From: Elusimicrobiota bacterium
GTDB taxonomy: Bacteria > Elusimicrobiota > Elusimicrobia > UBA1565 > UBA9628
DNA length: 64,000 nt
Assembly: GCA_016182905.1 (NCBI GenBank)
Contig: JACPFR010000041.1
Coordinates: 1 to 64,000 of the forward strand
Direction of reading: 5' to 3'
The notes under the pieces are model-generated. The model did not search any database, was not told where the DNA came from, and worked only from the letters and a program-made list of their open reading frames with translations. This document shows, piece by piece, positions 34,487 through 63,318 of this stretch (position 1 is its first letter; every line of letters starts with the position of its first letter). The translations under genes were made by a program, and so were the position numbers.

Positions 34487-34489
34487 CTT

Positions 34490-35785
34490 ATGGCCGAATC
34501 CCTCGGACGCCTCATCACGGACCTCGGGGAGCGCTCCCTGTACGACTCGGTGGCCCAGTGCTCCCGCTGCGGCTACTGCGAGCAGGCCTGCCCCACCTAC
34601 GTCGCCACCGGCGACGAGTCCAGGTCTCCCCGCGGCCGCAACCAGATCGTGCGGCTGATGATCGAGGGGAAGCTCGACGATCCGAAGGCCGCGATGGAGG
34701 CATTGTCGACGTGTCTGACGTGCGGGGCCTGCACGACGGCCTGTTACGCGAAGGTTCCCGTCGTCGACATCGTCCTCGAGGGAAGGCGCATGCTCCGGGG
34801 CGAGACGCATTGGCTCGTGAAGGCGGCGTGCCGGATCATGGTGACGGGTCCCCGGCTCTTCGCCGTCCTGTTGAAGATCGGTTTTCTGTTCAAAAAGTCC
34901 GGCCTATCGGCGTTGGGGCGGCCGGCGCTGCGCGCCGCCGGACTGTCCGTCCTCGCCTCGATGGACGAGCACACGGCCGAATCCCCGTTCTGGAACCTCG
35001 ACGACCTGACCCACAAGCGCGAGGACCCGGAGTCTCCCGCCTACCGCTACTTCGCTCCCTGCGGCCCCCGCTATCTGTTCCCGCGCGTCGGCCAGGCGAC
35101 GATGTCCGCTCTGGACGCGCTGATGGGCCAAGGGGCCTACCTCGACAACCCGTGCTGCGGCCTGCTGGCGCACAACTACGGGGAGCTCGAGGACGCCCGC
35201 GCGCTCGCCAAAAAGAACATCGAGCACGCGGAGAAGCGGCAGGACGCGGCGCCGATCATCGGCGACTGCTCCTCGTGCGTGGCCTTCCTCAAGTCCTATC
35301 CCCAGCTCTTCCTGAGGCCGGAGGACGCGCCTTGGCGGACGCGCGCCGAGGCGTTCTCCAAGCGCGTGCGCGACGCGATCGAGGTCTACGGCGAATGCGC
35401 CGACAAGCTTCCCGCCGCCGTCGCGGAGGGCGTCGAGACCACGTACCACGATTCCTGCCGCGCGATCAATCCTCAGGGGATCAAGACCCAGCCTCGTCTC
35501 GCCGCCAAGAAGGCCGCGGGCGCTTCCTACTGCGAGATGGCCGGCGCCGACGCCTGCTGCGGCGGCGCCGGGGCGTTCGCTTTCGTCCATGAGGAACTCT
35601 CCGAGGAGCTTCTCAAGAAGAAGATCGGCAACGCCGCGGCCGTGCAGGCGGGGCTCGTCCTGACGAGCTCGACTTCCTGCCTCATCCAGCTTGCCCGGGG
35701 TTTGAGGAAATACTATCCTGACGCCCGGGTGCTCCATCTCTCCGAGTTCGTCGCGGGGGCCCTCGAGAAAAAACATGGGGCGTAG
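34490..35785 (+). CDS. glcF: GlcF-like iron-sulfur subunit of glycolate/D-lactate dehydrogenase
   Basis: 431 residues. Two [4Fe-4S] motifs lie near the N-terminus: QCSRCGYCEQACP, and TCLTCGACTTACY, where the last Pro is replaced by Tyr. The CCG domains follow with NPCCGLLAHN and DACCGGAGAF. It accepts electrons from the GlcD-GlcE fusion encoded 3 bp upstream and delivers them to the membrane quinone pool. The hydrophobic stretch LFAVLLKIGFLF near residue 125 may help membrane contact. Its end overlaps the next gene by 11 bp. Confidence 0.9.
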   Translation: MAESLGRLITDLGERSLYDSVAQCSRCGYCEQACPTYVATGDESRSPRGRNQIVRLMIEGKLDDPKAAMEALSTCLTCGACTTACYAKVPVVDIVLEGRRMLRGETHWLVKAACRIMVTGPRLFAVLLKIGFLFKKSGLSALGRPALRAAGLSVLASMDEHTAESPFWNLDDLTHKREDPESPAYRYFAPCGPRYLFPRVGQATMSALDALMGQGAYLDNPCCGLLAHNYGELEDARALAKKNIEHAEKRQDAAPIIGDCSSCVAFLKSYPQLFLRPEDAPWRTRAEAFSKRVRDAIEVYGECADKLPAAVAEGVETTYHDSCRAINPQGIKTQPRLAAKKAAGASYCEMAGADACCGGAGAFAFVHEELSEELLKKKIGNAAAVQAGLVLTSSTSCLIQLARGLRKYYPDARVLHLSEFVAGALEKKHGA

Positions 35786-41233: not shown

Positions 41234-43126
41234 ATGGCCGATTTCGTCCCGCAGCCGCTCGGACGGCTGGCCGCGCGCATGTTCCGCGAGCTCGAGCTCA
41301 AGGACGCGATCTTCGACCTTCCTCGCCGCTCCTTCTTCATGGGGGACCCGAAGAAGGACTTCTCCGTCCGCTTCCACGGCATGACCGCCTCCTCGCCGCT
41401 GGGGCCGGCCGCGGGGCCGCACACCCAGCTGGCCCAGAACATCGTGCTGGCCTGGCTCGGCGGCGCGCGGATCTTCGAGCTGAAGACCGTGCAGGTCATG
41501 GACCGCCTCAAGATCCCGCGGCCGTGCATCGACATGCGCAACGTGGGCTACAACGTCGAGTGGTCCCAGGAGCTGCGCGCCGAGGAGTCGCTCGACGAGT
41601 ACGTGAAGGCCTCGATGCTCATCGACCTCTTGAAGGCGAGCGGGAAGATCCCGCTGGCGCCCGGCTTCGACCGTTCGGTGTTCGACCTGAGCGTCGGCTA
41701 CGACCTGAAAGGGGTGAAGAGCGACAAGGTCCGGACCTTCATCGCCGGCATGAAGGACGCGGGCGCGGTCGTCGCGCGCCTGCGCGCGGAGCTGCCCGAG
41801 AGCCTGCGCCGGACCGGGTTCTCGACGAGGATCTCCGGCTCGGTCACGCTCAGCACCTTCCACGGCTGCCCGCCCGACGAGATCGAGGCCATCGCCGACT
41901 TCATGATGTCGGAGCTGGGGCTCGACTGCATCATCAAGCTCAACCCGACCTTGCTCGGCCCCAAGGACCTGCGCGCCTTGTTCAACGACGCGTTGGGCTA
42001 CGCCGACATCGCCGTTCCGGAAGAGGCCTTCGCCAAGGACGCGACCTGGGAGCAGGCCTGCGGCTTCGTGACGCGCCTGTCGGCGAATGCCAGGACGCTC
42101 GGCCGCGGCTTCGGGGTCAAGTTCAGCAACACCCTCGTCGTCGAGAACAAGGAGGGCTTCCTGCCCGCCGCGGAGAAGACGATGTACCTCTCGGGGGCGC
42201 CGCTGCACGTCCTGGCGATGACCTTGGTCGGCCGCTTCCGCGAGCGCTTCGGCGACTCGGTGCCGGTCTCGTTCTCGGCGGGCATCGACAAGACGAACTT
42301 CCCGGACGCCGTCTCCCTCGGCCTCGTGCCCGTGACGGTGTGCAGCGACCTGCTCGCCCCCGGCGGCTACGGGCGGCTCAAGGGCTACTCCGAGGAGCTG
42401 GCCCGGCGCATGGACGCCGCCGGCGCCGCGACGATCCCGCAGTTCATCGCCAAGACCCGAGGCGGCTCGGTCCTCGCCAATACCAAGGCCTACGTCGCCG
42501 AGGCGACGAACGACCCGCGCTACGCGAAGGCGAAGAACTCGGCTTTGCCCAAGAAGCTGGGCACCCACCTGGTCCTCTTCGACTGCGTGACGTGCGACAA
42601 GTGCGTCCCGGTGTGTCCCAACGACGCCAACTTCACCTACGTCCTGCCGCGCGGCGAGGTGCCCGTCGTCAAGCTCCGGCGCGAGGGCGGCTCCTGGACG
42701 AGCCGGACCGAGGGCTCCCTGCGCTTTGACAAGAAGCACCAGCTCGCCAACTTCGCCGACTTCTGCAACGAGTGCGGCAACTGCGACGTGTTCTGCCCCG
42801 AGGACGGGGGACCGTACATCGTCAAGCCGCGCTTTTTCGGTACACGTGGATTCTGGGCGCAAAGCAAGGAGCGCGACGGATTCTTCATCGAGAACGGCGC
42901 CGTGCTCGGACGCTTCTCGGGGCGGGAGTACGGCCTGACTTTCCGCGACGGCGAAGCCGAATACTCGGGGCCGGGGTTCCGGGTGACCTACCGCCCCGAG
43001 GACCCGGCGGGCACCGCGCGGGGCGCGGCCGAGGACGAGGTGGACCTCACCTACGCCCTGATCATGGACCTCCTGCGCAAGGCGCTCCTGGCGCCCGACG
43101 CCGTGAGCTACGTCAACGCCGGCTAG
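41234..43126 (+). CDS. ygfK: Compact YgfK-like oxidoreductase with two [4Fe-4S] sites
   Basis: 630 residues. The first 450 match the N-terminal TIM-barrel-like part of YgfK (the so-called selenate reductase subunit): SPLGPAAGPHTQLAQNIV, ELKTVQVMDRLKIPRPCID, TLSTFHGCPPDEIEAI and LNPTLLGPKDLR. The C-terminus has ferredoxin motifs CVTCDKCVPVCP and CNECGNCDVFCP. E. coli YgfK has about 1030 residues because a GltD-like FAD/NAD(P)H module lies between these parts; here that module is absent. It probably acts with the molybdenum hydroxylase cluster on the other strand. Reaction unknown. Confidence 0.8.
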   Translation: MADFVPQPLGRLAARMFRELELKDAIFDLPRRSFFMGDPKKDFSVRFHGMTASSPLGPAAGPHTQLAQNIVLAWLGGARIFELKTVQVMDRLKIPRPCIDMRNVGYNVEWSQELRAEESLDEYVKASMLIDLLKASGKIPLAPGFDRSVFDLSVGYDLKGVKSDKVRTFIAGMKDAGAVVARLRAELPESLRRTGFSTRISGSVTLSTFHGCPPDEIEAIADFMMSELGLDCIIKLNPTLLGPKDLRALFNDALGYADIAVPEEAFAKDATWEQACGFVTRLSANARTLGRGFGVKFSNTLVVENKEGFLPAAEKTMYLSGAPLHVLAMTLVGRFRERFGDSVPVSFSAGIDKTNFPDAVSLGLVPVTVCSDLLAPGGYGRLKGYSEELARRMDAAGAATIPQFIAKTRGGSVLANTKAYVAEATNDPRYAKAKNSALPKKLGTHLVLFDCVTCDKCVPVCPNDANFTYVLPRGEVPVVKLRREGGSWTSRTEGSLRFDKKHQLANFADFCNECGNCDVFCPEDGGPYIVKPRFFGTRGFWAQSKERDGFFIENGAVLGRFSGREYGLTFRDGEAEYSGPGFRVTYRPEDPAGTARGAAEDEVDLTYALIMDLLRKALLAPDAVSYVNAG

Positions 43127-44502: not shown

Positions 44503-45435
44503 TCAGTAGATCTTGGGCCGGACGTCGCGCTTGAGGTCCCAGCCCGACGGGTCGGGCTTCTTGAGCGACCCGAGGTCGAGGTCGGCGATCACGAGGTCCG
44601 GGCGCGGGGAGCGGTTGGAGACCTTTTCGCCGTCGGGGCCGGCGAAGTAGCTCGCGCCGAAGTAGGGCTGGTTCCACGGCTTCTCCTCGCCGCGGCGGTT
44701 GGAGCCGCCGATGAAGAGGCGGTGGCGGCATGCGTCGACGAGGAATTCCTGATTCCATAGACGCCGCGATTTGGCCCCGAAGGTGACGGCGGGGGAGAAC
44801 ACGAGCTCCGCGCCCGCCTCGGCCAAGGCCGCGACGACGCCCTCGAAATGGCGGTCGTAGCAGATGGCCACGCCGACCTTCCCGACCGAGGTCTTGAAGA
44901 CGGGAAAGTAAGGGTTCTTGCCGAGTATCTTCGGCGATCTCTTATTCTGCGGCCCTTCGCTGCGTCCGTAATAATACGTCTCCGCGAACTCGCCCTGCTC
45001 GTTGGCGCCGCAGGGGATGTGCGTCTTGCGGTACTTGCCGATGATCGTCCCGTCGGCCTCGATGACGACCGCGGTGTTGAAGCGCTTCTTCGACTCGGCG
45101 TCGAGCTCGTAGATCGGCGCCACGACGACGATGCCGTTGTCCCTCGCGGCCTCGGCGAAGGCGTTCACGCTGGGCCCCGTCGCCGCGTCCTCGGCCATGG
45201 CCAGCCACATCGGGTCCTTGGTCATGGCGAAGTACGGCCCGGTGCACAGCTCCCCGAGGCAGACGATCTTCCCCCCGGCCTTCGCGGCGACGCGGATCAG
45301 GCCGGCGTTGTGCTCCACGTTCGCGCCGCGGACCGCGTCGAGGCGGCGCTTGAGCCCCCGAAGGTCCTTCACGGACTCCGGCATGTCCGGGTACGCGTTG
45401 ACCGTCTGGATCATAGCCGCGCGGACGAGGCTCAT
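44503..45435 (-). CDS. Carbon-nitrogen hydrolase (nitrilase superfamily), carbamoyl-amidase-like
   Basis: 310 residues. The Glu-Lys-Cys triad is visible: GELCTGPYF (Glu), GKYRKTHIP (Lys) and VAICYDRHFEG (Cys). The YDRH context and GPDG near the C-terminus recall beta-ureidopropionase and N-carbamoyl amidases, which release CO2 and ammonia from ureido compounds. Last gene of the operon with M20 carbamoylase, SsnA-like deaminase and Se-XDH; its ATG overlaps the M20 stop. This placement suits a late step in heterocycle breakdown, but the substrate is inferred. Confidence 0.85.
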   Translation of the reverse strand: MSLVRAAMIQTVNAYPDMPESVKDLRGLKRRLDAVRGANVEHNAGLIRVAAKAGGKIVCLGELCTGPYFAMTKDPMWLAMAEDAATGPSVNAFAEAARDNGIVVVAPIYELDAESKKRFNTAVVIEADGTIIGKYRKTHIPCGANEQGEFAETYYYGRSEGPQNKRSPKILGKNPYFPVFKTSVGKVGVAICYDRHFEGVVAALAEAGAELVFSPAVTFGAKSRRLWNQEFLVDACRHRLFIGGSNRRGEEKPWNQPYFGASYFAGPDGEKVSNRSPRPDLVIADLDLGSLKKPDPSGWDLKRDVRPKIY

Positions 45436-46697
45436 CGCGTTTCCTCGGCCAAGGCGAGGGCCGCGCCCAGAAGGACGTTCACGCCGTTCGCGCACTGCTT
45501 CAGCGTCGAGAACTCCCGCGGGTTGTGGCTGATCCCGTCGTACTCGCCCGGGACGAAGACCATCGCCGTCTTGCACACCCGGCTCCACTCCTGGGCGTCG
45601 TGGCCGGCGCCGGAGAGGATGGGCTCGTGCGACAGCCCCAGACGGTCGGCCTGGGCGGCGATGAGGGACTGCACGGACGCGTCGAAGGGCACGTGCGGGG
45701 TCTTGGCCGTGCGGCGGCTGGTGATGGTCACGCCGTCCCGTTTGGCGACCTCGCGGCACAGGGCGGCGAAGTCCTTCTCCGCCTTCTTCATCAGCGCGTC
45801 GGAGGGGTTGCGCAGGTCCACGGAGACGATCGCGCGGCCGGGCACGACGTTGACCATGCCCGGGACGTGGCGCACCGCGCCCATCGCCGCGCGCATCTCG
45901 CGGCCGTAGCGGCCCGAGGCCGTCATCTCGCGCAGGGCGACGTTGAGCCGGGCGGCGGCCAGGCCCGCGTCGCGGCGGAAGCTCATCGGCGTGGTGCCCG
46001 CGTGGCAGGACTTGCCGATGATGGTCAGCTCCTGCCACGAGATCGCCTGCACGCCCATGACGACGCCGCAGTCGAGGCCTTTGTGGCGGAGGATCGGGCC
46101 TTGCTCGATGTGGCACTCGACGTAGGCGTGGGGCGCGAGCTTGCCGACCGGCTCGGTCCCGAGGAAGCCGATCTTCTCGAGCTCGCCCTTGACGGTCAGG
46201 CCGTCGCGGTCCTGGAGGGCGTAGGCCGCTTCGAGCGGCAGGCGGCGCGTGGCCACGGCGCTGCCCAGCATGTCGGTGCCGAAGCGGCAGCCCTCCTCGT
46301 CGGTGAAGAAGCCGACGATCAGCGGGCGGCGCGTGACGACCTTGGCGTCGTTGAGCGTGCGCACGACCTCGAGCGCGCCGAGCACGCCGAGGCAGCCGTC
46401 GAAGCGGCCGGCGGTGGGGACGGAGTCGATGTGCGAGCCGAGCATGACGGGGGCGAGATGATCCTCGAGGCCGCGGCGGCGGCCGTACACGTTGCCGATG
46501 CGGTCGATCGTCACGTGCAGACCGGCCTGCCGGAACCATTTCACGACGAGGCGACGGCCCGCGCCGTCGGCGGCGGTCAACGCGAGGCGGTTCACACCCA
46601 TGATTCCGGTGCGTTCGTCCTTGTAGGCGCCGATCTTCCCGAGCTCCGACAACGAGGAATAGAGCCGCTTGCCGTCGATGCTCAAAGCCTTCGCCAT
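45432..46697 (-). CDS. M20 Zn-dependent N-carbamoyl-amino-acid hydrolase-like amidase
   Basis: 421 residues. Metal ligands of the hydantoinase/carbamoylase branch of M20 are present: GSHIDSVPTAGRFDGCLG (His, Asp), FFTDEEGCRFG (Glu), ECHIEQGP (His) and a late DGISHNPREFS (His). GKSCHAGTTPMSFRRDA is the dimerisation and substrate region. Such enzymes open N-carbamoyl or allantoate-type compounds in the cytoplasm. ATG 46697 has GGAGAGG 2 nt upstream and lies inside the end of the SsnA-like gene (16-bp overlap), so expression is coupled. Confidence 0.85.
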   Translation of the reverse strand: MAKALSIDGKRLYSSLSELGKIGAYKDERTGIMGVNRLALTAADGAGRRLVVKWFRQAGLHVTIDRIGNVYGRRRGLEDHLAPVMLGSHIDSVPTAGRFDGCLGVLGALEVVRTLNDAKVVTRRPLIVGFFTDEEGCRFGTDMLGSAVATRRLPLEAAYALQDRDGLTVKGELEKIGFLGTEPVGKLAPHAYVECHIEQGPILRHKGLDCGVVMGVQAISWQELTIIGKSCHAGTTPMSFRRDAGLAAARLNVALREMTASGRYGREMRAAMGAVRHVPGMVNVVPGRAIVSVDLRNPSDALMKKAEKDFAALCREVAKRDGVTITSRRTAKTPHVPFDASVQSLIAAQADRLGLSHEPILSGAGHDAQEWSRVCKTAMVFVPGEYDGISHNPREFSTLKQCANGVNVLLGAALALAEETR

Positions 46698-47935
46698 AAC
46701 CTCTCCGTCTGCTTGAGGGTGAAATCCCGGACCTTGTCCTCTCTCACCGTCGTCATCCGTCCGCGCCGGACGATCACCTTCCCCTGGCTGACGACGCTGT
46801 CGACATGTTTGCTCGTGAGGCCGTACAGAAAATGTCCCGCGGCGTTTTGGGCCGTCACCGGCGTCGGAGGCCGGTAATCGAGGATGACGAGGTTGTTCTC
46901 CCCGTCGCCCGAGAATCTGTTCTCGGCGATGTAATCGTGAGCCCGCCGCAGGCGCCGGTACGCCGCGAGCGGGGACAGCCCGCCGCGGGGCTGGGCCGCG
47001 AGATACGCCGCGCGCGCCGAGGCGAGCATGTCGCCATGCATCCCATCGGTCCCCAACAGGAGGCGGTCGCCCAATCCCTTGGGGTCGAAGCCCCCGACGG
47101 CGTTGTTTTGGTTGCTCTCTTCGTTTTGAACGAACCACGAACGGCTGGAACGGAAGAGGGCTCGTTCCGCGGCGTTCAGGTGAAGACCATGCACGAGCAA
47201 GGTTTTCGGGGACTCGAGTATGCCCGTGCGCGCGAGGCGCTGAATGACGCGCATCCCGTGCCGGCGCTGGCAGTCCTGTTGATCGTCGACGGCTTCGGCG
47301 ACATGGATATGGATGCCGCTGTTGTGGCCGATGGCCATCGCGATGGCGCGGTACAAAAGATCGTCGCCGACGGTGAAGGACGCGTGAAGGCCCACGAGGC
47401 CTTGGCGCTTGCGCAGGTAGCGATCGGTTTCTTCGAGGCCCGCCTCGCGCTTGGCCTTCCCGTCGCGGTCGGAGAGCTCCACGCACAGCAGATGGGAAAG
47501 GCCGATCTCGTCGAGGGCGTCGGCGATGATGTCGAGGCTTCCTTTGACGGAGTTTGGAGACGAATGATGATCAATAATAAACGTCGCGCCGGCCTTCGCC
47601 GCCGCGATGCCGCCCGCCATGGCGCTGGCGCGGATCATGTCCTTGTCGAGCCGCTTGTCGAGGTTCCACCAGACGAGCTTGAGCATGTCGGGGAAATTCC
47701 TCGGGGCGCGCTTCGCCGGCGGCATCCCGCAGGCGAGGGCGGAGTAGAGATGATGATGCGCGACGACGAAGGACTTGGTGACCAGCCGCCCGGAGCAGTC
47801 GACGGCCCTCGCGCCGCGGGGGATCCGCGGGATGAAGCGGGACTTCCCTTGAGAGCCCGGCTCGACCGCCAGATGGCCGCGGCGGACCTTCAGCGTGCGC
47901 CAGTCGACGAACGACGCGTCCCGGAGGTAGAGCAT
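46682..47935 (-). CDS. ssnA: SsnA-like amidohydrolase/aminohydrolase
   Basis: 417 residues of the amidohydrolase fold. VVAHHHLYSALACGMP carries the HxH metal site, then FIIDHHSSPNSVKGSLDII, HIHVAEA and LLGTDGMHGDM with the metal Asp. The HHHLYS and DHHSSP segments are closer to SsnA than to other deaminases. SsnA proteins sit in selenium-dependent molybdenum hydroxylase loci and are thought to deaminate purine-type rings. It is flanked by Se-XDH (ATG 47935 overlaps its stop) and the M20 carbamoylase. Confidence 0.8.
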   Translation of the reverse strand: MLYLRDASFVDWRTLKVRRGHLAVEPGSQGKSRFIPRIPRGARAVDCSGRLVTKSFVVAHHHLYSALACGMPPAKRAPRNFPDMLKLVWWNLDKRLDKDMIRASAMAGGIAAAKAGATFIIDHHSSPNSVKGSLDIIADALDEIGLSHLLCVELSDRDGKAKREAGLEETDRYLRKRQGLVGLHASFTVGDDLLYRAIAMAIGHNSGIHIHVAEAVDDQQDCQRRHGMRVIQRLARTGILESPKTLLVHGLHLNAAERALFRSSRSWFVQNEESNQNNAVGGFDPKGLGDRLLLGTDGMHGDMLASARAAYLAAQPRGGLSPLAAYRRLRRAHDYIAENRFSGDGENNLVILDYRPPTPVTAQNAAGHFLYGLTSKHVDSVVSQGKVIVRRGRMTTVREDKVRDFTLKQTERLWRRL

Positions 47936-50487
47936 CAGTCCTTCATGGGCAAGGTGCGCCGGCGCTTGCCGTCGAACGCCCAGAGGGCGTTGGCCACGGC
48001 TCCGGCCGTCGGCACCAGGCCGATCTCGCCCACGCCCTTGGCGCCGTAAGGGCCGAGCGGGTCGGGGACCTCGACGGCGATGACGGTGAGCTTCGGGGTC
48101 TCCTTGGCGCGCAGCACGCCGCAGTCGCGCAGCTTCGTCGACTTCGGGCGGCCGTTCTCCATGACCAACTCCTCGCTGATCGCGTAGCCGAGGCCCATGT
48201 GGAGCGACCCCTCGATCTGGCCTTCGAACAAGGTCGGGTTCATGACCTTGCCCGCGTCATGGGCGGCGATGAGCTCTTCGACGCGGCCGTCCTCGTCGAC
48301 GACGGCGACCTGGGTCGCGTAGCTGTAGGAGTAATGGGTGACGATCGGCTTGCCGTGGGTGTCGTAGCCGGGCTTGGTGGTCCAGTCGCAGACCCACTTG
48401 CCGCGGTAGCGGCGTCCGGCCATCGCGGCGAGGCCGTCGCGCTTGAGGTCGCTCTTGAACGCCCTGCAGGCGTCGATGAGCGCGTTGCCGACGAGGCTCG
48501 TCGCGCGGGAGGCGGTGGTCATGCCCGCAGGGGCGCCGTCGCTCGTGCGCGCGCGCACGGAGAGCTTGTCCGGGGCCAGCCCCGTCTCGGAGCAGACGAC
48601 CTGCACCGCGATCGTATCCACGCCCTGGCCCATCTCGGTCCAGCCGTGGTGTATCTCGACGCGGCCGGCCGGGAGGACCACGAGCTCCACCTCGGAGAAA
48701 TCGGGCATGCCGTTGCCGATGCCGGTGTTCTTGATGCCGCAGCCGATTCCCGCGTGTTTCGCGGCCTGGAAGCGGTCCTTCACCGCCTCGAGCGTCGCGC
48801 GCACGCCGACGCCGCCGGTCAGAATCTGACCGGTCGAGGTGGTCAGGCCGTCGACCAGGGCGTTGTCCCAGCGGAACTGCCAGCGGTCGAATTTGCCTTT
48901 TTCGCAGAGCTCATCGACGGAACACTCCATCGCGAAGGTCGCTTGATTCGCGCCGAAGCCGCGCATCGCGCCGCAGGGGACGTTGTTGGTGATGACCGCC
49001 GTCGCCTCCACGTCGACATGGGGCACGCAGTAGCCGCCGGTGGAGTGTCCCGCGGCCCGCTCGAGGACCTTCATGCCCACGGACGCGTAGGCGCCGGAGT
49101 CGCCGTAGATGCGCGCATATAACGCTTTCAGCTTTCCGTCCTTCCCGCAGCCGAGTTTGTATTCCATCCGCAGCGGGTGACGCTTGGAGTGCATCAAAAT
49201 GGATTCTTCCCGGGTGATCTCGAGCTTGACGGGCTTGCCGAGGAGATGCGCCGCCAAGGCCGCCTGGCTTTGCGCGAGCATGTCTTCCTTCCCGCCGAAT
49301 CCGCCCCCGTTAGGCACCAGCACGACATCCACTTCCGTTTCTTCGACGTTGAGCATGGCCGCGAGCTGCTTGCGGTCCTCGTAAATCCCTTGGCTTTGGG
49401 TGTAGACGATGATCCGCCCGTCCTCGGGCAAGGCCAAGGCGGCCTCCGGCTCCATGTACGCGTGCTCGATCCACTGCGTCTGGTACACCGCCTCGTGAAC
49501 GAAGTCGCACTCGGCCAAGGCTTTTGTCGCGTCGCCCTTCTTGGCTTTCGAGACGCTCAATACGTTGCCTTTGGGCTGGAGTTTCGGGGCCCCCGGAGCG
49601 AGAGCCGAGGGCACGTCGAGGACAGGCGTGAGGACCTCGTACTCGACCTTCACGGCCTTCGCGGCGGCCTGGGCGTGGGCGCGGGTGTCGGCCACGACCA
49701 GGGCCAGCACGTCTCCCACGTAGCCGGTGATCTCTCCGGCGGCGACCATCACGGGCCAGTCCTGTATGATCGAACCCTGCAAACGGCGGCCCGGGATGTC
49801 GGCCGCGAGGAAGACCTTGGTCACGCCCGTCATGGCCGACGCGGCGGAGGTATCGATTTTGAGCACCTTCGCGCGGGGATGGTCGGAGAGGCGCACCGCC
49901 GCGTGGAGCATGCCGGGGACCGTCATGTCGGCCACGTACGGCCGGCGGCCCAGCACCGCGTCCTTGATGTCGTACTTGGGCAGGCGCGTGCCGACCGGGC
50001 CCGCTCCCTCGGGCGGCGCCGAGGGCTTGCCGGTGCGCAAGGTCTTCGCCGCGTCCGCGATCGAGGCGACGATCTTCTTGTAGCCGGTGCAGCGGCACAG
50101 ATGCTGGTTCAGGCCGCGCTCGATCTCGTCGTGCGTGGGCTCCGGAGTCTTCTTGACCAGGTTCCAGGCCCGCATCACGATGCCCGGGATGCAGAAGCCG
50201 CACTGCGCGCCGCCGTTGTGGGCGAAGGCGTCGGCGAAGGCGTCCTGCGCGGGCTTGCCCATGCCCTCGGTGGTGACGACCTCCTTGCCTTCGACCTGCT
50301 TCATCGCGGTCACGCAGGACAGCACGGCCTTGCCGCCGAGCTCGACGGTGCAGCAGCCGCAGGCGGCCTGGGGGGAGCAGCCGTCCTTGGCGGAGATGAC
50401 GCCTTCCTCGTCGCGCAGCCAGCGCAGCAGCGAGCCCTCGGGCGCTCCTTTATATTCCTTCTCGACGCCGTTGAGCTTGAACTTCAT
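47935..50487 (-). CDS. Selenium-dependent xanthine dehydrogenase-type molybdenum hydroxylase
   Basis: 850 residues. The N-terminal 2Fe-2S domain is SAKDGCSPQAACGCC. The second 2Fe-2S domain has QCGFCIPG and QHLCRCTGYKK. It is fused directly to the molybdopterin domains (GGGFGGKEDMLAQ, GAMRGFGANQATFA, YGAKGVGEIGLVP with the catalytic Glu). There is no FAD domain. This fused layout and the neighbours fit the Se-dependent XDH family, in which a labile non-Sec selenium ligand occupies Mo; that ligand cannot be read from DNA. It hydroxylates purine-like rings. Start ATG 50487 overlaps the PLP lyase stop. Confidence 0.85.
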   Translation of the reverse strand: MKFKLNGVEKEYKGAPEGSLLRWLRDEEGVISAKDGCSPQAACGCCTVELGGKAVLSCVTAMKQVEGKEVVTTEGMGKPAQDAFADAFAHNGGAQCGFCIPGIVMRAWNLVKKTPEPTHDEIERGLNQHLCRCTGYKKIVASIADAAKTLRTGKPSAPPEGAGPVGTRLPKYDIKDAVLGRRPYVADMTVPGMLHAAVRLSDHPRAKVLKIDTSAASAMTGVTKVFLAADIPGRRLQGSIIQDWPVMVAAGEITGYVGDVLALVVADTRAHAQAAAKAVKVEYEVLTPVLDVPSALAPGAPKLQPKGNVLSVSKAKKGDATKALAECDFVHEAVYQTQWIEHAYMEPEAALALPEDGRIIVYTQSQGIYEDRKQLAAMLNVEETEVDVVLVPNGGGFGGKEDMLAQSQAALAAHLLGKPVKLEITREESILMHSKRHPLRMEYKLGCGKDGKLKALYARIYGDSGAYASVGMKVLERAAGHSTGGYCVPHVDVEATAVITNNVPCGAMRGFGANQATFAMECSVDELCEKGKFDRWQFRWDNALVDGLTTSTGQILTGGVGVRATLEAVKDRFQAAKHAGIGCGIKNTGIGNGMPDFSEVELVVLPAGRVEIHHGWTEMGQGVDTIAVQVVCSETGLAPDKLSVRARTSDGAPAGMTTASRATSLVGNALIDACRAFKSDLKRDGLAAMAGRRYRGKWVCDWTTKPGYDTHGKPIVTHYSYSYATQVAVVDEDGRVEELIAAHDAGKVMNPTLFEGQIEGSLHMGLGYAISEELVMENGRPKSTKLRDCGVLRAKETPKLTVIAVEVPDPLGPYGAKGVGEIGLVPTAGAVANALWAFDGKRRRTLPMKD

Positions 50488-51929
50488 CAGTCGAGGCCGG
50501 TCCTCGCGTTGAACTCTCCGATGAGCTTGTCCCACTCCTTCGCGCTCGCGAACGTCTCGGCCCAGAACTCGGGGTCCCACAGGCGGCGCAGCTCGTCGGA
50601 GGTCCGTCCCTGCTGCTCGACCCAGGTGAAGTACTTGAGGTTGTGCAGGGCCTTGCGGTCGCGGTAGTTCAGCTCGCGCAGGTTGTCCGTGTTCGCCCCG
50701 CGCATGCGGCGGTCCATGTCCATCGCCGCCTGCAACGGCGTGTACTTGCCATGGGCCTCCTCGAGCTCGACGAGTCGGGAGCCGTACAGGTCCACCGAGT
50801 CGGTGAAGATGGTGAACACGACGTCGTCCTTGCCGAGCTCGTAGTACTTGGCGAGCTTGACGGCGGAGAGCATGTTGGAGATGCCGGAGATGCCGAGCAG
50901 GCCCAGGTTCTCCACGGCGGCTTTGTCCACGCCCTCGGTGAGCAGGTGCTTGCGGCCCGCGGGGTCGTTGAACAGGCGCAGCAGGCGCATGCAGTCCTCG
51001 TCGTCGATGGCGACGACCATGTCGGTGTTGCGCACGTTGTGCACCCAGGGGATGTGCTTGTCGCCGATGCCCTCGATGCGGTGCTCGCCGAAGCCGTTCA
51101 TGAACAAGGTCGGGCACTGCTGGGCCTCGGAGGCGGCCACGCGCACCGCCGGGAACTTCGTGCGCAGGTAGTCGCCGGCGGCGATGGTGCCCGCCGAGCC
51201 GGTGGCGGAGACGTAGCCCGCCAGGCGGCCGTTCTTGCCCTTCACCTTCTCGAAGACTTCCTCGATCGCCCCGCCGGTCACGTGGTAGTGCCAGGTCGGG
51301 TTGCCGAACTCCTCGAACTGGTTGAAGATCACGCAGTCCTTGCGCGTCTTCTTGATCTCCCAGCATTTATCGTAAATCTCTTTGACGTTGGATTCCGTTC
51401 CGGGCGTCGCGATGACCTCGGCCCCGATGGACTTGAGCCACGCGAAGCGCTCCTTGCTCATGCCCTCGGGCAGGATCGCCACGGCGGTGCAGCCGAGCAA
51501 AGCGCTGTCGAACGCCCCGCCGCGGCAGTAGTTGCCCGTCGAAGGCCACACCGCTTTCTGGGACGTGGGATCGAACTCTCCCGTCACGAGGCGGGGGGCG
51601 AGGCAGGAGAAGGCCGCGCCGACCTTATGGGCGCCGGTGGGGAAGTGCTTCCCGACGAGGCCGATGACGCGGGCGTCGATGCCGGTGATCGACTTCGGTA
51701 TCTCGAGATAGTTCACGCCGCCGAAGAGGCCGGTCTTGGCGTCGTTCTTCCAGGTGATGCGGAACAGGTTGGCCGGGTCGAGGTCGTTCATGCCGACCTT
51801 CTTGAGGCGGGCGTGGGCCGAGGCGGGAGCCTTGGAGGGATCCTTCATCTGCGCGAAGGTGGGGATGACGACGCCGCGCTCCTTGCACAGCTTGGCCGTC
51901 TTCTTCAGCACCGCTTCGTTGATCTTCAT
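50487..51929 (-). CDS. Fold-type II PLP enzyme, TrpB/cysteine-synthase-like lyase
   Basis: 480 residues. GKHFPTGAHKVGAAFSCL contains the likely PLP lysine in a TrpB-like context (TGAHK). VWPSTGNYCRGGAFDSALLG is the substrate/phosphate region, and SATGSAGTIAAGDYL is a Gly-rich PLP-phosphate loop. It should catalyse beta-elimination or replacement on an amino acid. In the E. coli locus the PLP enzyme is diaminopropionate ammonia-lyase (YgeX); this protein differs clearly in sequence, so it may replace that step or do another. GGAG lies 5 nt before ATG 51929. Confidence 0.7.
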   Translation of the reverse strand: MKINEAVLKKTAKLCKERGVVIPTFAQMKDPSKAPASAHARLKKVGMNDLDPANLFRITWKNDAKTGLFGGVNYLEIPKSITGIDARVIGLVGKHFPTGAHKVGAAFSCLAPRLVTGEFDPTSQKAVWPSTGNYCRGGAFDSALLGCTAVAILPEGMSKERFAWLKSIGAEVIATPGTESNVKEIYDKCWEIKKTRKDCVIFNQFEEFGNPTWHYHVTGGAIEEVFEKVKGKNGRLAGYVSATGSAGTIAAGDYLRTKFPAVRVAASEAQQCPTLFMNGFGEHRIEGIGDKHIPWVHNVRNTDMVVAIDDEDCMRLLRLFNDPAGRKHLLTEGVDKAAVENLGLLGISGISNMLSAVKLAKYYELGKDDVVFTIFTDSVDLYGSRLVELEEAHGKYTPLQAAMDMDRRMRGANTDNLRELNYRDRKALHNLKYFTWVEQQGRTSDELRRLWDPEFWAETFASAKEWDKLIGEFNARTGLD

Positions 51930-51946
51930 GGATCTCCCTGACGCAG

Positions 51947-51982
51947 CTGTTTCCGGAAACAGTCGACTGACGGTACCGTCAG
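51947..51982. repeat. Three overlapping palindromes: CTGTTTCCGGAAACAG, CAGTCGACTG, CTGACGGTACCGTCAG
   Basis: Perfect palindromes at 51947-51962 (16 bp), 51960-51969 (10 bp) and 51967-51982 (16 bp) share ends and fill almost the whole gap between the threonine-synthase-like and PLP-lyase genes. The first is identical to the core of the palindrome at 10608-10627. In RNA they would form two consecutive hairpins; as DNA they could bind a dimeric regulator. Confidence 0.75.
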
Positions 51983-51983
51983 T

Positions 51984-53222
51984 TTAAGAAATCTTCTCGC
52001 GAGCGGCCACGCGCCGGACCGAGGCCATGCTCGTCCCCACCTCGTGTGGCCGTCCCGCCGCCTTCATCGCGCTGCCGACGTCCTTCAAGCCGCTGCCCGT
52101 GATCACGATCACCGCCGTGTCGTTCTCGCGGACCTTTCCCGACGCCGCGCACTTGGCCAGGCCGGCGTAGGCGGCCGCTCCGGCCGGCTCGGCGAAAACG
52201 CCGGCGCCCCGGGCGACCGCCGGTATCGCGGCGAGTATCTCGCGGTCGGTCACGGTCACGGCGAAGCCGTCGGACTGCTTGAGGGCATGGACGGCGGCCG
52301 CGCCGTCGCGGGGGATGCTCACCGAGATGCTGTCAGCAACAGTCCTGCCACTCGCCGCGCGGATGGGGCCGCCGGATCTCCAGGCGTCCGCGACGGCCGC
52401 GCTGCCCTCGGCCTGCACGGCGACCATCCGGGGCAGACTGTCGATGAGGCCGAGCGCGTGGAATTCGGCGAAGCCTTTCCAGAGGCCGCTGATGATGTTC
52501 CCGTCTCCGACGGAGACGAACACGAGATCGGGGACCTTCCAATCCAGCTGCTCGCAGATCTCGAAGGCGCAGGTCTTCTTGCCCTCGCGGGTGAAGGGGT
52601 TGTAGCCGGTGTTGCGGTTGTACCAGCCGAACTCGTCGCAGGCCTGGCGGCACAGGTCGAAGGCCTGGTCGTAGGTGCCGTCCACGCTGAGGACGGTCGC
52701 CCCGAAGACGAGGAGCTGGGCCAGCTTGGCGGGGGGCGCGGTCCGGGGCACGAAGATGACGGGCTTGGTCTCGCGCTGGGCCATCATGCAGGCCAAGGAC
52801 GCGGCGGCGTTCCCGGTCGAGGCGCCGGCGACGGTCTTCTCTCCGGTCTCGAAGGCGCGCGCCGCGACGACGGCGCTCGCCCGGTCTTTGAAGGAGGCCG
52901 ACGGGTTGCGGCCGTCGTCCTTCAGGTACAGGTGCTTAAGCCCGAGTCCGGCGCCGAGCTTTCGGGCGTGGTAGAGAGGCGTCCAGCCGGCGGACACGGG
53001 CGGAATTCCCGTTCTGCCGTCGAGCGGCAGGATGTCGAGGTAGCGCCAGAGGCTGCGCTCCGGATCGGCCTTCAGCGACTTCCGGCCTATCCGTTTTCGA
53101 AGGGCCTTGTGATCATAGACGACCGAGAGGTTCCCGCCGCAGCGCGGGCAGACGTATTTCGCGTCGGACAGGCCGCACTGCGACCCGCACGCGACGCAGC
53201 GGAATCCCTCGATCTTCTTCAT
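51984..53222 (-). CDS. thrC: Threonine synthase-like PLP enzyme with N-terminal zinc ribbon
   Basis: 412 residues. FRCVACGSQCGL and KYVCPRCGG form an N-terminal zinc-ribbon-like part. NPSASFKDRASAV holds the PLP lysine, ASTGNAAASLACM the substrate loop, and VSVGDGNIISGLWKGF the phosphate loop; all are typical of threonine synthase (O-phosphohomoserine to threonine). Because it sits at the head of the Se-hydroxylase operon and threonine synthase relatives have varied substrates, a catabolic role (for example beta-elimination) is possible. GAGAGG lies just before ATG 53222. Confidence 0.75.
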   Translation of the reverse strand: MKKIEGFRCVACGSQCGLSDAKYVCPRCGGNLSVVYDHKALRKRIGRKSLKADPERSLWRYLDILPLDGRTGIPPVSAGWTPLYHARKLGAGLGLKHLYLKDDGRNPSASFKDRASAVVAARAFETGEKTVAGASTGNAAASLACMMAQRETKPVIFVPRTAPPAKLAQLLVFGATVLSVDGTYDQAFDLCRQACDEFGWYNRNTGYNPFTREGKKTCAFEICEQLDWKVPDLVFVSVGDGNIISGLWKGFAEFHALGLIDSLPRMVAVQAEGSAAVADAWRSGGPIRAASGRTVADSISVSIPRDGAAAVHALKQSDGFAVTVTDREILAAIPAVARGAGVFAEPAGAAAYAGLAKCAASGKVRENDTAVIVITGSGLKDVGSAMKAAGRPHEVGTSMASVRRVAAREKIS

Positions 53223-59872: not shown

Positions 59873-60982
59873 CTATTTTTGCTCCGCCGGCGCTCCGGAC
59901 GCCTTTTCTTCCGGGTACGTGATGTATTGATAGACCCCGACGCGCTTGTTCTTGGTGTCGGCGACGTAGATCATGCCGTCCTTGTCGATGAAAATCCCCG
60001 CCGGCAGGTTGAGCTGGCCGGCGACGTCGCCGGGGCTGCCGTACCAGACCAGGAGCTGGCCCGCGCGGTCGAAGACCTGGACCCTGGAGAAAAGGGCGTC
60101 GACCACGTGGATGTTGCCGTCGGAGTCCGCGGCGATGCCGCGCGGCCGGGACATGTAGCCCGGAGCGTCTCCGGACTCGCCGAAGCCCCCGATGGCCGCT
60201 CCGGTCGAGGAAAAGATGTGGACTCGGGCGGCCAGGGGGTCGCTGACCATGAAGTCGCCGTTCGCGAACGCCCAGACGTTGTTGGGGTTGGGCAGAGCGT
60301 AATACTCTTTTTTGGCGTGTACGCACATCTCCCGGATGAAATTCCCGTCCTTGCCTAGCAGCACGATGCGGCGGTTGCTGCTGTCGGCGACCAGCAGCTC
60401 GCCGGACGGGGTCAGCGCGATCCCGGCGGGCCGGTTGAGCCTGCCCGCCCCGCCCCCCGCTCCCTCCGACTTCCACAGGAACTTCCCGTCGGGAGAGTAG
60501 GCCTTGACCGTTCCCTCGCTCGTGTCCGAGACGTAGGCGATGCCCGCGTCGTCGACCGCGACGCTGACCGGGGACTTCAAGCTGTCCTCGCCGCGGTCGC
60601 CCATGTAGCGGAAGGTCCCTGCCTTCGGGTCGACGACCGTCAGATGCTGGGCGCCGGTGTCGGTGGCGTATATCCTGCCTTCATGGCTCCAGACGCCGTA
60701 GGGATTGTTGAAGATATCGGGGGTGATCTTGCCGCCCGAGAACATGGCGATGAGCCTGGCGAAGAAGCCCTCTTTTTTCTTCTCGACCTTGGGGGCTATA
60801 TCGTCGGCGCTCTTGATCGTGCGCACGTAGCGTATACGCGGCTTGTCCGGCGGCGGGGGCCAGACGAGTTCCCTCGTGCTGGTCGAAACGGCCGGCGACT
60901 CCGCGGCCGAGGACCGGGCGTCGGCGGCTTTGGCGGCGCAAACCGCCAGGATGACGGCAAGGGTCAAAGTGATGGTTTTCAT
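59873..60982 (-). CDS. Exported NHL-repeat beta-propeller protein
   Basis: 369 residues. A signal peptide (ITLTLAVILAVCAAKAADA) is followed by ELVWPPPPDKPRIRYVRTI and five to six NHL blades (AGRLNRPAGIALTPSGELLVAD, PGYMSRPRGIAADSDGNIHVVD, QLNLPAGIFIDKDGMIYVADT). Paralogue of the protein at 57499, which shares the WPPxPxxxRxR opening. A short membrane-like stretch (GFFARLIAMFSGG) lies near residue 75. Its ATG overlaps the stop of the regulator-cytochrome fusion by 4 bp. Confidence 0.85.
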   Translation of the reverse strand: MKTITLTLAVILAVCAAKAADARSSAAESPAVSTSTRELVWPPPPDKPRIRYVRTIKSADDIAPKVEKKKEGFFARLIAMFSGGKITPDIFNNPYGVWSHEGRIYATDTGAQHLTVVDPKAGTFRYMGDRGEDSLKSPVSVAVDDAGIAYVSDTSEGTVKAYSPDGKFLWKSEGAGGGAGRLNRPAGIALTPSGELLVADSSNRRIVLLGKDGNFIREMCVHAKKEYYALPNPNNVWAFANGDFMVSDPLAARVHIFSSTGAAIGGFGESGDAPGYMSRPRGIAADSDGNIHVVDALFSRVQVFDRAGQLLVWYGSPGDVAGQLNLPAGIFIDKDGMIYVADTKNKRVGVYQYITYPEEKASGAPAEQK

Positions 60983-63318
60983 TTTTTATGGCACTCCGCG
61001 CACAGGGTGAAGATATCGCCGCGCATCAGCTTCGGGTTCTTGCCGGCGTGCGGTTCGTGGCAGGACGCGCAGTCGAAAGGCTTGCCTTCGCGGCGCGGGT
61101 CGGCCTTGCCTTCCTTCGCGGTCGGATGGCGAGAGACGGGATGGGAGTCCTTGAGAGCGTCCGCGTCGTGGCAGCCGAAGCAGACGTCGCCGAGGGGTTT
61201 GCGGACCAGGGACGCGCGCTTGCTCACGTGCGGATTGTGGCAGGTCGTGCAGTCTCCGGAGGAGAAGGGCTGATGGACGACCACGCTCGCGCCCAGCTTG
61301 CGGAAGTTGGAGTGGCAGACGAAGCACGACTCCTCCGGCAGCTTCTTGAGGGCGGTCTTCCCGTCGGCCCCGGTCTTGGCGTGGCACATCTCGCAGGAGC
61401 GCGAGCCGAAGGGGATGTGTTCTTTCGCCTCGACGATGAGCTTGGGGCTTTTCGAGGCGTGCGGCTCGTGGCAGTCCGTGCACTTCCCCTCGAAGGCGCT
61501 GACGCCGAAATGCGCTTTCGATATCGCGGCGTCCTTCGGGTCGTGGCAGGTCGCGCACAGCTCGTTGACCGGGGAGTTGAGCAGGGGTGCGTTGTCCGAC
61601 GCGTGAGGCTGATGGCAGGTGCTGCAGTCCATATCCTTGAACGCGGAGTGGACGGTCGCCTTGTTCATATCGGCCGCCTTCCCCGCGTGGCAGGACAGGC
61701 ACAGGGGCTTCTGCTCCATCGTCAGCTTGGCCGGATCCTTCGGGTCGGCGTGGCATTTGGAGCATTCGCCGGACTTTACCGGCGAATGCGCGCCCGCCTT
61801 CTCCATCATCGGCTTGGCCTTCTCCTCGTTGGCCGAGCGGAATTTGTCCTTCGGGGCGCTCTTGCCGAACCAGCCCTCGGCGGAGGCGGCGCCCGCGAGG
61901 AAGGCGAGCATCAGCAAAGCGCCGATGGCTTCCTTAAGACCGAATTTTTCCATGCGCCGGCGCAGGGCGTCCCGCGACAGGCCCAAGGACTGCGCGGCCT
62001 TCTGCTGGTTGCCGCCGCTGCGCTTGAGGGCCTGGACGACGAGATCCTTCTCCACGTCCTCCAGGCGGATGCCGTTCGGGGGCAAGGTCACGGCGGCGTC
62101 GTCCGCCTTCGCGGGCGTGGGCGCCTCCGCCGCGGCCTGCGCGCGCGCGATGTGCGCGGGCTGCGCGGCGGCGACGGGATGGAACTCCAGCTCGTCGAGG
62201 ATCATCATTCTCTCCAGAACGTTGCGAAGCTCCCGGACGTTGCCGGGCCACTTATAAGCTTGGAACTGCTCGAGGGTCTCGGGGGACAGGACGGGCTTGG
62301 GCTTGAGCATCTCCGCGCTGAGCTTGCCGAGCAGGCGGTCCATCAGCGGCAGGATGTCCTCCTTGCGCTGGCGCAGCGGAAGCAGGGAGATCGTCAGCAC
62401 GTTGATGCGGTAGTAGAGGTCCTGGCGGAAGCGCCCCTCGGACACCGCGCGCGGCAGGTCCTCGTTGGTGGCGGCGATGACGCGCACGTCCACGGTGATG
62501 TCGTCGCGCCCGCCGACGCGCTTGAAGGTCTTGTCCTCGAGCGCGCGCAGGATCTTGCCTTGGAGGGCCATCGGCATGTGGCCGATCTCATTGAGGAAGA
62601 TCGTGCCGCCGTTGGCGATCTCGAAGAGGCCCTTCTTCTGGCCGACGGCGCCGGTGAAGGAGCCCTTTTCGTAGCCGAACAGCTCGCTTTCCAGCAGGTT
62701 GTCGGGGATGGCCGTGCAGGAGATCTCCATGAACGGCTCGAAGGCGCGGGGGCTGCCGTAGTGGATGGCGCGGGCCAGGCGGTCCTTGCCGCAGCCGCTC
62801 TCGCCCAGGATGAGGACGGTGCCGAAGGGGCTCGCCGAGATCTTCCTGGCCACGGCGAGCGCGTCCTTCATGGAGGGGCTCTCGGCGACGATCGAGGCGA
62901 AGTTGTACTTGTCGAGGCCCTTCTGGTGCGCGCGGTCGAGGCGGCGCTTGAGCTGGGCGGTCTCGAGCACGCGCTTGAGCGTGATCTTCAGGCCCGCGAG
63001 CTGGAGGGGCTTGGAGATGTAGTCGGCGGCGCCCTCGCGCAGGGCCTCGACGGCGCTGGCCAGGTCGGCGAAGGCGGTCATGATGATGACCGGGAGCTCG
63101 GGGTTGCCGCGGCGCGCGGACTTGAGCACGTCGAGCCCGCTCTCCCGGCCGAGGCGCAGGTCGGAGAGGACGACGTCCGGGTTCTCGGCCTCGAGCGCGG
63201 CCTCGGCCTCGGCCAGGTCGGCGGCGACGACGGTCTTGTAGCCGGAGTTGGTCAGGTCCTGCGACAGGGACCACCGGATCAGCTCTTCGTCGTCCACGAT
63301 AAGGATCTTCGCCGACAT
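60979..63318 (-). CDS. NtrC-type sigma-54 response regulator fused in frame to an 11-heme cytochrome c
   Basis: 779 residues in one open frame. REC (1-120) has LSDLRLG with the phospho-Asp and ISKPL. AAA+ (about 145-380) has GESGCGKD, GSFTGA and FLNEIGHMP, where the Walker B Asp is Asn. The Fis-type HTH (about 425-462) has NQQKAAQSLGLSRDALRRR. Directly after it, MEKFGLKEAIGALLMLAFLA is a membrane/signal segment ending AGAASA (cleavage near 480), then eleven CXXCH sites (CSKCH, CLSCH, CSTCH, CATCH, CTDCH, CEMCH, CFVCH, CTTCH, CFGCH, CASCH, CAECH). An internal ATG at 61953 could start a separate 324-residue cytochrome, but it has no Shine-Dalgarno. Confidence 0.85.
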   Translation of the reverse strand: MSAKILIVDDEELIRWSLSQDLTNSGYKTVVAADLAEAEAALEAENPDVVLSDLRLGRESGLDVLKSARRGNPELPVIIMTAFADLASAVEALREGAADYISKPLQLAGLKITLKRVLETAQLKRRLDRAHQKGLDKYNFASIVAESPSMKDALAVARKISASPFGTVLILGESGCGKDRLARAIHYGSPRAFEPFMEISCTAIPDNLLESELFGYEKGSFTGAVGQKKGLFEIANGGTIFLNEIGHMPMALQGKILRALEDKTFKRVGGRDDITVDVRVIAATNEDLPRAVSEGRFRQDLYYRINVLTISLLPLRQRKEDILPLMDRLLGKLSAEMLKPKPVLSPETLEQFQAYKWPGNVRELRNVLERMMILDELEFHPVAAAQPAHIARAQAAAEAPTPAKADDAAVTLPPNGIRLEDVEKDLVVQALKRSGGNQQKAAQSLGLSRDALRRRMEKFGLKEAIGALLMLAFLAGAASAEGWFGKSAPKDKFRSANEEKAKPMMEKAGAHSPVKSGECSKCHADPKDPAKLTMEQKPLCLSCHAGKAADMNKATVHSAFKDMDCSTCHQPHASDNAPLLNSPVNELCATCHDPKDAAISKAHFGVSAFEGKCTDCHEPHASKSPKLIVEAKEHIPFGSRSCEMCHAKTGADGKTALKKLPEESCFVCHSNFRKLGASVVVHQPFSSGDCTTCHNPHVSKRASLVRKPLGDVCFGCHDADALKDSHPVSRHPTAKEGKADPRREGKPFDCASCHEPHAGKNPKLMRGDIFTLCAECHKK

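Follow-up and report, generated by a model that had tools for sequence, protein, structure and literature searches.

What is degraded by the products of six minus-strand genes that lie together in a genome of the Elusimicrobiota, and does their function depend on selenium? The genes are located in a stretch of 64,000 nucleotides that was analysed as a whole and is referred to as the window (assembly GCA_016182905.1, contig JACPFR010000041.1, positions 1 to 64,000). In a first-pass annotation they had been described as a selenium-dependent molybdenum hydroxylase operon. Here, we interpret this operon, together with an adjoining gene of the YgfK family, as a selenium-independent variant of anaerobic reductive urate degradation (probability of about 0.72), with all of the chemistry predicted from the sequences. 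That the pathway concerned is reductive urate degradation appears very likely. The genes are listed below (PLP, pyridoxal 5'-phosphate; XDH, xanthine dehydrogenase; FAD, flavin adenine dinucleotide):

51984-53222, minus strand: PLP2, threonine-synthase-like PLP enzyme, proposed 2,3-diaminopropionate ammonia-lyase (PF00291; TIGR00260, 218 bits)
50487-51929, minus strand: PLP1, CysK/TrpB-like PLP enzyme, companion of SsnA (PF00291; model of CysK/CBS fold; co-occurrence)
47935-50487, minus strand: XDH, fused 2Fe-2S and molybdopterin subunit, proposed urate reductase to yanthine (TIGR03311, 878 bits; MoCoBD, Fer2_2)
46682-47935, minus strand: SsnA-family amidohydrolase, proposed ring opening (TIGR03314, 280 bits; NF005540, 315 bits)
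45432-46697, minus strand: M20, amidohydrolase of the N-carbamoyl-amino-acid/allantoate type, proposed 2-ureido hydrolase (TIGR01879, 353 bits)
44503-45435, minus strand: NIT, nitrilase-family, beta-ureidopropionase-like enzyme, proposed 3-ureido hydrolase (CN_hydrolase, 133 bits)
41234-43126, plus strand: YgfK-family reductase without FAD/NAD(P)H domain, proposed yanthine reductase (TIGR03315, 412 bits)

From the 5' end of the minus strand, the order is PLP2, PLP1, XDH, SsnA, M20 and NIT. A gap of 54 bases separates PLP2 from PLP1, and the five genes from PLP1 to NIT overlap end to start (1 base each at PLP1/XDH and XDH/SsnA, 16 bases at SsnA/M20 and an ATGA at M20/NIT). The six genes were found where the first-pass annotation had placed them as an overlapping or closely spaced operon, with starts refined afterwards; the YgfK-family gene, a seventh member that lies 1.4 kb beyond the operon end on the opposite strand, had been overlooked. 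Because the gene order recurs in other genomes at 58-98% identity, the arrangement is not a matter of chance. Four congeneric genomes (L035-L038), a genome from another family of this order (L043), L134 and a metagenome-assembled genome (MAG) of Phycisphaerales (L211) share the gene order NIT-M20-SsnA-XDH-PLP1-PLP2, and all seven genes were present, rearranged, in a MAG labelled Myxococcaceae (L142), although taxon labels of MAGs may be wrong. YgfK adjoins the gene set in L035-L037, L142 and L211. Among the earlier family assignments, those of XDH, the M20 carbamoylase, the nitrilase-family protein and the PLP enzymes (PF00291) were upheld, and that of SsnA stands only for a divergent relative with scores under the family cut-offs.

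Urate degradation in Escherichia coli begins with its reduction to yanthine by XdhD, as Li et al. (2025; PMC12507026) showed. The ring is then dearomatised and opened by YgfK and SsnA, and HyuA acts on the hydantoin, which it opens. After YgeW (or UacY) and YgeY have taken off the two ureido groups, YgeX cleaves the remaining diaminopropionate into pyruvate and ammonia. XDH, YgfK and SsnA occur together in the window, and they form the upstream set of this characterised reductive urate pathway. By analogy, XDH would reduce urate to yanthine (2,8-dioxopurine), the short YgfK would reduce the pyrimidine ring of yanthine, and SsnA would open the reduced ring to give ureidomethyl-hydantoin. A dihydropyrimidinase/D-hydantoinase acting in trans would then convert the hydantoin to 2,3-diureidopropionate, from which M20 would remove the 2-ureido group and NIT the 3-ureido group. 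The resulting 2,3-diaminopropionate would undergo ammonia elimination to pyruvate by PLP2, alone or with PLP1, in replacement of YgeX. The order of ureido cleavage, as well as each reaction in this organism, is what we infer, and the final beta-elimination step is plausible. The earlier view of a purine- or urate-type catabolic operon with a different tail was borne out. The ring hydroxylation that had been proposed as the first step is probably reversed, since the XDH homolog of the characterised pathway works as a reductase of urate (PMC12507026).

In profile searches, XDH exceeded the cut-off of TIGR03311 (830 bits), whose name is 'selenium-dependent XDH'. SsnA is 32% identical to E. coli SsnA and retains the amidohydrolase motifs. 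The YgfK-family protein matched TIGR03315 over residues 6-463, under the family cut-off. Because its alignment with E. coli YgfK covers only residues 1-405 and 904-1004 of the latter, it is predicted to retain the flavin mononucleotide-type domain and the C-terminal [4Fe-4S] motifs and to be without the FAD/NAD(P)H part. No gene for an FAD subunit adjoins XDH in the operon. As neither XDH nor YgfK has an NAD(P)H module here, the electron donor for both reductases is likely to be ferredoxin-like.

With regard to the hydantoin-opening step, the source genome encodes a dihydropyrimidinase/D-hydantoinase on contig C17 (L112; 596 bits, cut-off 393), within an apparent reductive pyrimidine (Pyd) operon, so that the HyuA function would be available in trans. 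The earlier statement that no dihydropyrimidinase-like enzyme is seen holds for the operon, and an enzyme of this kind is encoded elsewhere in the genome. A second hydantoinase-like match in this genome (L080, G000:C28:41827-43140; 187 bits) contains an in-frame TGA, which may reflect either a pseudogene or an error in sequencing.

For the removal of the ureido groups, a tail of two hydrolases seems probable. M20 scored well above the cut-off of the TIGR01879 hydantoinase/carbamoylase-family amidases (204 bits), and NIT is a paralog (36% identity) of the nitrilase-family enzyme in the Pyd operon on C17. Diureidopropionate has one alpha and one beta ureido group; given that M20 belongs to the N-carbamoyl-alpha-amino-acid/allantoate family and that NIT is related to the Pyd enzyme, a natural prediction is that M20 acts on the 2-ureido group and NIT on the 3-ureido group. 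It had been noted before that YgeX, YgeY and a carbamoyltransferase were not seen. For YgeX and YgeW, this absence was confirmed throughout the source genome; the operon M20 is a TIGR01879 member and not YgeY, and a YgeW/UacY-YgeY-YgeX tail was not found in searches that did not cover UacY or a distant copy of YgeY.

The distribution of these genes was surveyed in 248 Elusimicrobiota genomes, with 270 bits or more taken as a strong SsnA match. PLP1 and strong SsnA were each found in 62 genomes and co-occurred in 60, the genes often being unlinked (Fisher p about 1e-52 when kinship is left uncorrected and about 1e-16 with genera as units). YgeX was absent from 61 of the 62 SsnA-positive genomes, and YgeW was present in 54. 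The eight SsnA-positive genomes without YgeW comprise six operon carriers (the source genome, G113, G167, G182, G218 and G089), G224 and G109. Where YgeW is present, many PLP1/PLP2 loci also encode carbamate kinase, YgeY (418 bits, cut-off 321) and a carbamoyltransferase of the YgeW type. Because operon-type genomes lack YgeW and many of the other PLP1/PLP2 loci have that set, M20 and NIT are predicted to be the replacement of the carbamoyltransferase/kinase/YgeY set.

The clearest natural experiment for an exchange with YgeX is the sister genome G224, whose operon reads NIT-M20-SsnA-XDH-YgeX, with YgeX in the PLP1-PLP2 slot. In another genome of the same genus (G210; L221:7403-9393), YgeX overlaps a NIT-like gene in which the catalytic Glu and Cys are apparently replaced by Gln and Gly. 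No SsnA was found in the G210 genome, and it is possible that this locus is a remnant of the pathway.

A species-wide scan for PLP1 covered genomes of 84,980 species and yielded more than 570 relatives, 80 of which were kept. They belong to Elusimicrobiota, Bacteroidota, Phycisphaerae and other Planctomycetota, Ignavibacteria, Acidobacteriota, Spirochaetota, Sumerlaeota, Aminicenantes, Gemmatimonadales and others, many of them environmental according to their record titles. The 46 genomes tested for SsnA, most of which are from phyla other than Elusimicrobiota, all had a family match: in 42 it reached at least 260 bits, in three it was a fragment and in one it was weak. The E-value limit is by itself permissive, as matches were also obtained in 6 of 14 control genomes. 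Within 10 kb of the 80 PLP1 loci we found PLP2 (39), SsnA (29), XDH (26), YgeW (24), YgfK (23), YgeY (21) and YgeX (1). The co-occurrence of PLP1 with SsnA across genomes supports a link of PLP1 to this pathway.

PLP2 exceeded the cut-off of the threonine synthase family TIGR00260 (167 bits) and scored 297 bits with NF006050 (cut-off 303). It is 39% identical to the ThrC of the same genome, which is encoded in a canonical Hom-ThrC-ThrB operon on contig C24. In canonical ThrC, Arg160 and Asn188 (T. thermophilus numbering) take part in phosphate binding. These Arg and Asn residues of the phosphate site are changed to Thr and Asp in PLP2: PLP2 and about 60 homologs show NPxxxEGKKT and VGDG, whereas the ThrC of this genome shows NPFRIEGQKT and VGNAGN. 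A change of Asn to Asp at this site would suit a positive side chain, such as the beta-ammonium group of diaminopropionate. With the true ThrC on C24 and the phosphate-site residues replaced, a role of PLP2 as housekeeping threonine synthase was rejected. On balance, we slightly favour the assignment of PLP2 as a diaminopropionate lyase.

PLP1 is a protein of 480 amino acids with extra conserved ends. It scored 109 bits with the cysK family, far under the cut-off of 351 bits, and its predicted structure has a fold type II of the CysK/cystathionine beta-synthase (CBS) kind (mean predicted local distance difference test score 83). Structural matches of the model include CysK, CBS and beta-cyanoalanine synthase (Z 28-29.4, root-mean-square deviation of about 3 Å over about 300 residues); YgeX is not among the listed structural neighbors, which is uninformative either way. 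Cysteine synthase and TrpB were rejected as identities of PLP1 because the curated cut-offs were missed and the genomic context is wrong. Neither PLP1 nor PLP2 passed NF006058, the YgeX family, and both have STGN in place of the Asp120-type TDGN motif. Such non-membership leaves the proposal of a YgeX-like function for either enzyme unaffected. For PLP1, an action on diaminopropionate or albizziin has about even chances.

Several observations weigh against the interpretation as reductive urate degradation with PLP1 and PLP2 in its tail. XDH is only 24% identical to E. coli XdhD, and at this level the loop with Glu606 of XdhD aligns poorly; SsnA falls under both family cut-offs (455.5 bits for TIGR03314 and 444 bits for NF005540); and the operon itself has no HyuA. 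G224 has kept the PLP1-PLP2 pair on another contig in addition to YgeX. Relatives of PLP2 (49-54% identity) are encoded in many small Elusimicrobiota genomes that lack SsnA (L213-L216, from genomes of family f3). Finally, one cluster in Aminicenantes (L223) contains YgeX, XDH, SsnA, PLP1 and HyuA with no PLP2 nearby. The simple equation of PLP1 with YgeX is weakened by this cluster, which favours PLP2 as the equivalent of YgeX and leaves PLP1 with a separate role. As a separate observation, the PLP2 relatives of the small genomes are also without the phosphate-site residues of ThrC.

Given how far SsnA and XDH have diverged in sequence from their characterised counterparts, the same kind of chemistry might also take place on a different ureide or heterocycle, such as a hydantoin, an allantoin-like ureide or a modified pyrimidine. 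Many N-carbamoyl compounds serve as substrates of enzymes from the M20 and NIT families, and an NCS1 gene of the allantoin/nucleobase permease type lies near the hydantoinase on C17. On the other hand, YgfK and SsnA are, as far as known, specific to the urate pathway (PMC12507026), YgeX fills the PLP slot in G224, and related SsnA loci adjoin a gene for 8-oxoguanine deaminase, which makes urate. A substrate other than urate is therefore unlikely. In related Elusimicrobiota, SsnA is often found beside a PydA-like fused reductase, and in L118, L121, L123 and L131 both are accompanied by 8-oxoguanine deaminase (644 bits, cut-off 532). The latter, with urate as its predicted product, would be another feed into the pathway.

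Still less probable is that PLP1 and PLP2 are biosynthetic enzymes of threonine or cysteine that merely adjoin a purine operon. Their best family names (threonine synthase and cysteine synthase) and the PLP2 relatives in genomes without SsnA would agree with this, whereas the canonical Hom-ThrC-ThrB operon and CBS are located elsewhere in the genome, PLP2 has lost the ThrC phosphate site, and PLP1 tracks SsnA even where the genes are unlinked. The placement of both enzymes in the catabolic tail, as first proposed, is therefore retained.

SelD, on which the earlier claim of selenium dependence was made to turn, is absent from the source genome (97% complete; profile search at E 0.001) and from all 62 SsnA-positive Elusimicrobiota genomes; the single genome of the 248 with SelD over the cut-off is without SsnA. 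YqeB and YqeC did not turn up among the operon genes, and no genome-wide search was aimed at them. Because of the absence of SelD, dependence of the operon on selenium was rejected, and the family name 'selenium-dependent XDH' does not hold as a requirement here. Hydroxylation of a purine or heterocycle by a selenium enzyme, followed by deamination and elimination, is hardly credible: the TIGR03311 match, the presence of SelD in 28 of the 46 PLP1 genomes of the species-wide scan and the need of Clostridioides difficile for selD in growth on urate (PMC11448449) would agree with it, and are outweighed by the lack of SelD and by a YgfK partner that indicates a reductive route.

The operon is thus a variant of a known pathway and no new kind of system. 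With the E. coli cluster (ygeW-ygeX-ygeY-hyuA-yqeA and ygfK-ssnA-ygfM-xdhD; PMC12507026) it shares the XDH homolog, the YgfK-family reductase, SsnA and the presumed route via two ureido groups to a C3 diamino acid. It differs in that YgeX, YgeW and YqeA are absent from the genome, an M20 protein of another family replaces YgeY, a nitrilase-family enzyme is added, PLP1 and PLP2 stand in the place of YgeX, neither XDH nor YgfK has an FAD module, SelD is lacking and the hydantoinase is unlinked. Like the cluster of C. difficile and Clostridium sporogenes (UacX, UacY, XdhAC), it has an XDH without FAD subunit, a reductase without FAD domain and a hydrolytic rather than phosphorolytic removal of ureido groups; in contrast, these clostridia have a PydA-like UacX and a D-aminoacylase homolog (UacY), have kept YgeX and, in the case of C. 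difficile, require selD on urate (PMC11448449). A reductase, a ring-opening amidohydrolase and a nitrilase-family ureido hydrolase are also shared with the Pyd pathway, from which the operon is set apart by an additional molybdenum enzyme, a second ureido hydrolase and the PLP enzymes, with a diamino acid and not beta-alanine as endpoint. PLP2 and PLP1 share fold type II with threonine synthase, cysteine synthase and CBS, the phosphate-site Arg/Asn being absent from PLP2. No description of this variant was found in the literature searched, which yielded only papers on E. coli or C. difficile and older selenium work, and a mention by Liu et al. or Kasahara et al. is possible.

Two other features of the window may be mentioned. 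At 60979-63318 (minus strand), one open frame encodes an NtrC-type response regulator (receiver, sigma-54 activator and Fis helix-turn-helix) followed by a multihaem CXXCH cytochrome; because of a signal-peptide-like stretch at the junction (LKEAIGALLMLAFLAGAASA), the frame may in fact span two separate genes. At 32153-35785 (plus strand) there is a GlcD/GlcF-like pair, an FAD-linked oxidase followed by an Fe-S/CCG protein.

Work published in 2025 elucidated the reductive urate pathway (PMC12507026), which was presented as one of the gut. A commentary left open whether the pathway is of ancient origin or arose recently as an adaptation to the gut, and leaned to the latter (PMC12990295). Here, the pathway core is observed with another tail in bacteria of aquifer, peat, lake, sediment and soil from about ten phyla, and it appears free of selenium in Elusimicrobiota. 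Such an environmental spread over many phyla speaks against a purely gut origin, although it is not decisive without rooted trees. The published neighborhood survey counted YgeX by PF00291 (PMC12507026, Fig. 3g). Because this domain also matches PLP1 and PLP2, such counts cannot separate the three. Likewise, the names 'selenium-dependent XDH' and 'threonine synthase' are misleading for the proteins of this operon. More tentatively, and with some doubt, PLP1 may represent a new PLP activity of urate degradation (e.g. albizziin beta-lyase or diaminopropionate racemase), and the form with PLP1 and PLP2 may be an old environmental version in many phyla and a possible source of the gut version with YgeX. 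In any case, two families of PLP enzymes are given a testable role.

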